Positions 8,358-9,543 of a stretch of 35,165 nucleotides of DNA are shown here, piece by piece. The DNA is taken from the NCBI GenBank assembly GCA_017652105.1, contig JAGCBP010000008.1:1-35165 (forward strand), written 5' to 3'. A program made the translations under genes and the position numbers. Source of the DNA: Candidatus Saccharimonadota bacterium. Its GTDB lineage: Bacteria > Patescibacteriota > Saccharimonadia > Saccharimonadales > Saccharimonadaceae. The notes under the pieces were generated by a model that saw only the letters and a program-made list of their open reading frames with translations, had not been told where the DNA came from and searched no databases. Positions within the stretch are counted from its first letter, which is position 1. Each line of letters begins with the position of its first letter.

Positions 8358-8918
8358 ATGTACGGACCTACAGATCTCAAGAAAAACACTCTTATCACCT
8401 TGGATGGCCAGCCGTACAAGGTGGTAGAATACTCACAAAAAGTTATGGGCCGCGGTGGTTCCATTGTCAACGTCAAAGTCAAAAATTTGATTACTGGCGC
8501 ACTTCTTCCAAAGACTTTCAAAGGTCAGGAAAAAATCGAACCAGCCGAAGTCACTACCAGAAAAGTGCAATATTTGTACAATGATGGCGAAAAATTTTAC
8601 TTCATGGATCCAGAAACTTTTGAACAATACGAGCTTGCAAAAGACATGGTTGGGGATTCAGCAGATTTCATGAAAGAAGGTGATGAAATGGAAATTCAAT
8701 TCTATAACGGCACCGCTATCAACTTAAGTCTGCCAAAAAATCTTTGGCTCAAAGTTACTTACACCGAGACCGCAGTCAAAGGCGATACTACTAGCTCTGT
8801 CATGAAGGATGCTACTTTAGAAACCGGCGTAGTTATCAAAGTCCCAGCTTTTATCAAAGAAGGCGACACCGTGTCCGTGGACACCGATACCTATGAATAT
8901 CGCGAGCGCAAAAAATAG
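8358..8918 (+). CDS. efp: Translation elongation factor P
   Basis: EF-P enters the ribosomal E site and relieves stalling at polyproline. Residues 1-63 form the KOW-like domain I, and two OB domains follow (VQYLYNDGEKFYFMD; VVIKVPAFIKEGDTVSVDT). The tip loop reads VMGRGGS with Arg32 where E. coli has Lys34 (PGKGQ). Length 186 aa is normal. AAAGGAG precedes the ATG and the gene lies 13 nt after rpsR. The adjacent Pro-rich surface proteins would be natural clients (inference). No EarP- or EpmA-like modifying enzyme is in the window. Confidence 0.95.
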   Translation: MYGPTDLKKNTLITLDGQPYKVVEYSQKVMGRGGSIVNVKVKNLITGALLPKTFKGQEKIEPAEVTTRKVQYLYNDGEKFYFMDPETFEQYELAKDMVGDSADFMKEGDEMEIQFYNGTAINLSLPKNLWLKVTYTETAVKGDTTSSVMKDATLETGVVIKVPAFIKEGDTVSVDTDTYEYRERKK

Positions 8919-9543
8919 GGGTTATTTCAAAATCAAGGGCGCTGCCACCGCCTTTGATTTTGATTTCAAAGATAAAGTCGTACTAGATATTGGCTCCTCT
9001 ACTGGCGGTTTTACCCAGTACGCCCTAGAACAAGGTGCCAAAAAAGTCATTGCCGTAGAAAAGGGAACCAATCAAATGAAATCGCCTCTGCGCAATAATC
9101 CAAAAGTAGAACTGCATGAAAAAACTGATATTTTTGACTTTGAGATGACAGAAATGCCTTTCGAGGGGCATCCGCAGTTGCTACGAGGACGCAGCGAGGA
9201 GCCCCATGAAGATGGGCGCGACGAGCGTCCCGAGAAAGGCATTTCTGTCATCTTGGCGGATGTTTCATTCATCTCGTTAACCAAAATCTTAAAATATGCC
9301 AAAGACCATTTAGCCTGTAAAGATACCGAATTTTTGGTGATGCTAAAACCTCAATTTGAGGCCAAACCTTATCAGTTAAATAACGGCATTGTCAAAAACG
9401 AAAAGATTAGAAGAGAGATTATCAGGGATTTTGAATCTTGGCTCAAATTGAACAAATTTATTGTTCAAAACAAAAAAGACAACGACCTTCACGGCAAGCA
9501 CGGCAATACCGAAAGATTTTATTATTTACACCTTGCAAAATAA
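8893..9543 (+). CDS. TlyA-like (FtsJ/RrmJ-fold) rRNA methyltransferase without S4 domain
   Basis: A SAM-dependent 2'-O-methyltransferase of the TlyA group, which modifies cytidines in 16S and 23S rRNA. It has the RGYFKIK segment (9-15), motif I VVLDIGSSTGGFT (29-41), the ILADVSFISL strand and LVMLKPQFEA. These cover the K-D-K part of the catalytic set. Typical TlyA proteins carry an N-terminal S4 RNA-binding domain; here the ATG lies just before the catalytic domain, 26 nt inside efp, so S4 is absent. Residues 84-120 are encoded by a 19-bp inverted repeat plus its interior, inserted in frame before the ADVSF strand and rich in Glu and Arg. The reading frame is intact, so the protein may still work. 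Confidence 0.85.
   Translation: MNIASAKNRGYFKIKGAATAFDFDFKDKVVLDIGSSTGGFTQYALEQGAKKVIAVEKGTNQMKSPLRNNPKVELHEKTDIFDFEMTEMPFEGHPQLLRGRSEEPHEDGRDERPEKGISVILADVSFISLTKILKYAKDHLACKDTEFLVMLKPQFEAKPYQLNNGIVKNEKIRREIIRDFESWLKLNKFIVQNKKDNDLHGKHGNTERFYYLHLAK
9144..9252. repeat. Palindromic element inserted in frame in the methyltransferase gene
   Basis: GATGACAGAAATGCCTTTC (9144-9162) is perfectly inverted at 9234-9252 around a 71-bp GC-rich core. The core has further pairing (GGGGC 9165-9169 with GCCCC 9211-9215). Base composition and the charged product (GRSEEPHEDGRDERPE) differ from the flanking gene. The nearest known parallel is the Rickettsia palindromic elements that sit inside ORFs; a relation is not implied. 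Confidence 0.8.

Follow-up and report, generated by a model that had tools for sequence, protein, structure and literature searches.

The stretch analysed here, hereafter the window, comprises 35,165 nucleotides of contig JAGCBP010000008.1 from a Candidatus Saccharimonadota genome of 668 kb in 21 contigs (GCA_017652105.1), and carries a 111-bp palindrome inside a tlyA-like rRNA 2'-O-methyltransferase gene. We consider it probable (about 0.78) that this palindrome belongs to a family of small, non-autonomous mobile palindromic elements of Saccharibacteria that resemble the Rickettsia palindromic elements (RPEs), insert in surface loops within essential genes and persist only where the reading frame stays open. 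To judge from covariation among the copies, the conserved entity is a nucleic-acid fold and not a peptide. No earlier description in Saccharibacteria or Patescibacteria was found in the open-licence literature, in agreement with a sequence-only reading of this DNA that knew of no such family for the lineage, and in-frame mobile palindromes of Saccharibacteria are apparently undescribed so far. In-frame palindromic insertions were formerly a Rickettsiales curiosity; here they would form an independent and abundant family in streamlined epibiont bacteria.

Copies in many genes and genomes

A search of the source genome with the exact arms returned the window copy only, and the first impression was of a single private element. 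This was abandoned when a structural model located six further copies in the same genome. The seven copies lie in seven genes (tlyA, der, a gene for an rsuA/rluB-type synthase, femAB, truB, leuS and lepA), and the arm sequence differs at each. The arm was not found elsewhere in the window with up to three mismatches allowed (chance expectation 0.01).

When the 111-bp element was used as a BLAST query against 100 genomes of the same genus, 71 matched at a permissive cut-off, with strong matches (E < 1e-20) at ~30 places; G005, G006, G025, G036 and G038 each carry several copies. At most of these places the alignment covers the core plus a few arm bases on each side. The 111-bp sequence is rare beyond the genus, and phage, plasmid and viral-contig collections gave no match to the element. 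An exact 26-nt core motif recovered 106 stretches in GTDB genomes; all records listed were Ca. Saccharibacteria, and the named relatives came mostly from ruminant guts. A covariance model based on 38 copies matched 204 of 394 genomes of the family, spanning 15 of its 61 genera, and 157 of 173 genomes of the genus, counted among the matches listed. Seven genomes matched in a phylum-wide draw of 380, six of them from the same family, and five genomes searched in full gave roughly 7–14 matches each. Another family of the phylum is represented by a single copy (L258, in G614) that shares the core motifs, has long arms with bulges and may have arrived by horizontal transfer.

The sequence-only reading had taken copies in other open reading frames (ORFs) as a sign of mobility, and these exist both in relatives and, as the six structural relatives, in the same genome. 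The opposite pattern, conservation in distant tlyA orthologues and absence elsewhere, is not what we found: the element recurs at tlyA in some related species, yet is widely dispersed.

Most copies are genic. Out of 130, 120 (~92%) lie within ORFs of at least 120 codons that span the element, 84 in sense and 36 in antisense orientation. Random windows of the same loci fall inside such ORFs in 85% of cases, and thus the element does not avoid genes. The hosts are essential genes, mostly of translation (leuS, ileS, valS, lepA, der, obgE, tsaD, truB, tgt and miaA); recX is also a host. Four of the six frames through the 71-nt core contain no stop codon, and between the two strands the copies make use of each of these four (EGHPQ.., RGIRS.., SGRSS.. 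and RDAPR..). Therefore, the encoded peptide is not the conserved unit.

The host gene in the window (8893–9543, plus strand) was assigned from an ORF that stays open across the element, matches to TlyA/FtsJ models and comparison with orthologues; its 216-aa product is a TlyA/FtsJ-type methyltransferase with the FtsJ fold. Among 21 TlyA orthologues, the element site is the sole position of hypervariable length and lies between DIFDF and ADVSF, which bears out the sequence-only placement of a frame-preserving insertion just before the conserved ADVSFIS strand. In an AlphaFold2 model of the window protein, residues 83–113 have a predicted local distance difference test score (pLDDT) below 50 and form the loop joining helix 77–81 to strand 119–122, with the rest of the methyltransferase fold predicted confidently. 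We suspect that the insert is translated into a disordered loop of ~30 residues that the protein tolerates. Elements of this kind would explain unusual disordered loops in proteins of Saccharibacteria, and could lead structure predictions and phylogenetic analyses astray.

A conserved core between locus-specific arms

The whole element in the window spans 9141–9255 on the plus strand (covariance model R1, 120.8 bits, E 9.4e-31). Its 111-bp palindrome (9143–9253) consists of a locus-specific left arm of 20 nt (AGATGACAGAAATGCCTTTC, 9143–9162), a core of 71 nt (9163–9233) and a right arm of 20 nt (9234–9253), the exact reverse complement of the left. The outer part of the right arm continues into codons of the conserved strand VILADVSF. 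The sequence-only reading had described a perfect 19-bp inverted repeat around a GC-rich 71-bp core; repeat and core are both real, with the repeat length corrected to 20 bp. Extended to 25 nt, the arms are 92% complementary. The GC content of the core is 67%, compared with 43.5% across the window, and the element folds far more stably than its shuffles (z = -8.8 as RNA, -7.9 as DNA).

In this copy and its relatives the core comprises a small hairpin (ATCC..GGA) and a larger hairpin flanked by GCGA-S-GAGC and GCGA-S'-GAGC, where S-S' is G-C in 23 copies and C-G in 15. We infer that the GCGA/GAGC motifs could form tandem G.A pairs. The window copy carries a compensated variant, CCCCAT-GAAG-ATGGG, in place of the usual CCCCGT..ACGGG. 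Of the 27 pairs in the element as a whole, 20 show changes on both sides; covariation reaches 0.443, whereas shuffling gives 0.156 (0/500) and sliding no more than 0.138.

The arms behave differently from the core. Type-1 copies share 91% identity in the core versus 36% in the outer arms, and arms pair with their partners in the same copy (score 14.9) far better than in cross pairs (5.4). Pairing drops to background at ~23 nt, giving a uniform arm length of ~22 nt. Over 1759 arm columns in 81 copies, 92.8% of pairs are Watson-Crick, and in the same copies single bulges cluster after position 6–7 of the right arm and at 12–14 of the left. The arm ends show a weak GAA/TTC consensus at positions 19–21. 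Even in pairs from different sites with core identity of at least 0.97, the outer arms have an identity of 0.47 (background 0.36); eight such pairs have 100% identical cores, with outer-arm identities of 0.28–0.56 in seven and 0.88 in one.

Rapid evolution of the arms was considered and rejected. In four pairs of orthologous copies with ~95% flank identity, divergence is 2.3% in the arms, 1.4% in the core and 5.0% in the flanks, so under vertical descent the arms change at about the same slow pace as the cores, and fast arm evolution cannot account for identical cores with unlike arms.

Turnover and the mode of insertion

The tlyA site varies among related species. The window element occupies it in G049, G038, G039, G025 and G069, other palindrome families occupy it in G007, G001, G035, G053 and others, and it is empty in G026, G056 and G009. 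Two genomes of ~95% identity (G397 and G398) have most copies in common, and differ by presence or absence at tlyA (120 nt replacing 15 nt, flanks ~95%) and at obgE (flanks about 93–94%). They also carry different palindrome families at one site each in valS and an rsuA/rluB-type gene, and at one further site. The empty site in relatives that the sequence-only reading had looked to as proof of mobility is thus found, including at tlyA itself at about 94–95% identity. Turnover is fast enough to show gain, loss and replacement between ~95%-identical genomes. Alleles with a flipped core occur as well, in 17 pairs of copies at a shared site, and one copy at a leuS site (L174) has an internal deletion. 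At the two close empty sites (tlyA, obgE), native bases are replaced and no clear direct repeat is visible.

Other palindromes share these sites. A second family (GACTTGGCC..GGCCCGGAGC) sits in the same tlyA loop of other species (L063, L064, L066, L067, L068 and L070), and its arms again differ. A third, with cores of the CTGGGGGGACCCCCG..CGATGGGGGAAACTGCG type, occurs at the same hotspots in G397 (L240, an rsuA/rluB-type site, and L275 8765, a tgt site). A palindromic insertion of ~37 nt (CCCCCAAAATTTTG..CATTTTGGGGG; L287 893 / L318) has a 6-bp direct repeat, TCCCCC, and the end of its right arm is complementary to the target repeat.

Strand asymmetry offers a clue to the form in which the element acts. 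On the element strand, wobble mismatches are G.U rather than A.C in a ratio of 56:28 (p = 0.003), most strongly in antisense copies (20:3); on the mRNA strand the ratio is 38:44, with no bias. We infer from this that pairing acts in a folded single strand. A function at the mRNA level was rejected on the same wobble counts and on the orientation of the copies, 36 of them antisense.

We tentatively propose, at somewhat less than even odds, that only the folded core of ~71–77 nt is transmitted, on one strand, and that new complementary arms of ~22 nt, bulged at recurrent positions, are acquired or built at each target. The broader reading, a probable RPE-like family, asks for less. On that reading the element would be selfish, and its core would be recognised by mobilising machinery as a folded single strand, either single-stranded DNA or RNA of the element strand. 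The matching arms would form at or soon after insertion, or would already exist and receive an exchanged core, and would not be brought from the donor. If core-only transmission is true, it is a mode of transposition or homing for which we found no description among known small palindromic elements, and it would spread elements through essential genes without breaking them. With a conserved core and locus-specific complementary arms, the part that moves can be told from the part that arises at the target, and the question of insertion becomes directly testable.

Several observations weigh against the probable reading. Two pairs from different sites have similar outer arms (L030/L119, 0.88; L011/L016, 0.75), and therefore arms sometimes travel with the core. 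The strand-wobble result comprises 84 mismatches from related copies that are not fully independent. Neither arm is a clear match to the native allele in the two close pairs with an empty site, and empty alleles may reflect loss or gain alike. Ectopic gene conversion of cores could also leave the same core between dissimilar arms. Among Y1 transposases and reverse transcriptases, the enzymes examined, no mobiliser emerged. Reverse transcriptase ORFs, mostly of ~350–440 aa and possibly of the diversity-generating retroelement type, occur in 39 of 60 genomes of the genus (including L261–L263). As a mobiliser, this enzyme was rejected, since it is absent from the source genome and from several element-rich genomes, which argues against any link to the elements.

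An unlikely alternative is that the palindromes are old, standing sites whose cores are homogenised by ectopic gene conversion or loop exchange, with inversion between the arms flipping the core in place. Unlike arms around identical cores would follow directly, as would the 17 pairs of same-site copies in which the core is inverted between similar arms. At ~93.5% flank identity, L194 and L106 differ by two compensated core changes beside an identical right arm and by a local GTG/CAC-type change in the left arm, a pattern that suggests template switching or core replacement. However, tlyA and obgE alleles without any palindrome exist among close relatives, so entire palindromes are gained and lost. 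Homologous conversion would also be expected to involve tracts longer than ~71 bp between unlike flanks.

We give a similarly low chance to the possibility that a core inserts with an inner stem of ~6 bp, after which fold-back synthesis copies one flank onto the other, as in quasi-palindrome correction, leaving one arm native. One outer arm does coincide with native codons in several genes (VILADV in tlyA, VDADS in ileS and the left arm in tgt), and the net insertion minus the core is often 14–34 nt, closer to one arm than to two. On the other hand, recurrent bulge positions and uniform arms of ~22 nt are not expected of random fold-back, and the cleanest empty pairs show no arm that is clearly native. 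Split alignments against empty orthologues gave a mixed outcome (left arm native, right arm native or neither) because the sites are variable loops. The stricter proposal, a native arm in every case, was dropped, given these mixed alignments and the lack of confirmation from the two cleanest empty pairs.

It is very improbable that the core is removed from RNA by self-splicing, or skipped by the ribosome, to give a protein without the insert. In its favour, the structure is strong and conserved, and its long stem joins the flanks. However, the frame is open in nearly all genic copies, which neither splicing nor bypass requires, and in the antisense copies (36 of 120) the mRNA holds the wrong strand. 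The lack of wobble bias on the mRNA strand also argues against it, as does Rfam, where the window element had no match at the gathering threshold and only chance-level matches below it.

Equally remote is movement by an IS200-like Y1 transposase, as for repetitive extragenic palindromic (REP) sequences, their REPIN units and the REP-associated tyrosine transposase (RAYT). REPINs are short, dispersed palindromic units believed to function in single-stranded, folded form, with conserved ends, a variable middle, extragenic locations, reported compensatory changes and a Y1 transposase (PMC3116915), and the bulged imperfect hairpin and element-strand specificity seen here recall such single-strand transposition. 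The layout is nevertheless the reverse, with a conserved centre and variable arms (91% and 36% identity) in place of conserved terminal repeats, and ~92% of copies lie within ORFs and not in extragenic space. Y1_Tnp has no match in the source genome and turns up in 3 of 100 genomes of the genus, with 97 lacking it. Short of an unrecognised Y1 relative, the element is therefore not of the REP/RAYT type.

A chance palindrome or ordinary insertion private to tlyA, to which the single own-genome copy of this exact subfamily might point, is refuted by more than 100 copies elsewhere and by structured covariation.

Known palindromes and the tlyA neighbourhood

The sequence-only reading had likened the element to RPEs, which holds for its behaviour and fails for membership. 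RPEs (Ogata et al. 2000, 2002; summarised in PMC10969869) are dispersed palindromes of ~100–150 bp that form many families and have entered unrelated genes of a reduced genome while preserving the frame. The Saccharibacteria element is likewise a short, dispersed palindrome with many copies, in frame in protein genes and missing from some orthologues, and no enzyme was identified for it here. However, each RPE family keeps a conserved encoded peptide (PMC10969869), whereas the Saccharibacteria element is read in four frames and both orientations, and conserves a covarying structured core. Its arms are locus-specific and its host lineage is unrelated. The element is thus RPE-like in its working, yet a distinct variant, set apart from RPEs by description.

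Coding palindromes in the mitochondria of Nematomorpha are also inverted repeats within working protein genes, but there both arms encode conserved protein regions (PMC6649704), unlike the inserted element with a common core in variable loops described here. Miniature inverted-repeat transposable elements are similarly short and non-autonomous, with inverted repeats around a core; their terminal repeats are conserved across copies, whereas those of the Saccharibacteria element vary. The attC sites of integrons have a variable stem sequence, a conserved stem geometry with extrahelical bases, and strand selectivity. The Saccharibacteria arms share these features, including bulged bases, but end in a weak GAA/TTC consensus and not in GTT/AAC R boxes, and there are no cassette genes.

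Two further features of the window tlyA gene concern its 5' part. The TlyA profile match starts at about position 57 of the product, and the N-terminal S4 domain is absent. The start of the gene overlaps the end of an efp-like gene by 26 nt (8893–8918), and an inverted repeat of 18 nt with a 1-nt loop (8927–8963) lies directly after the efp stop, inside the 5' end of tlyA, where it is a possible efp terminator.
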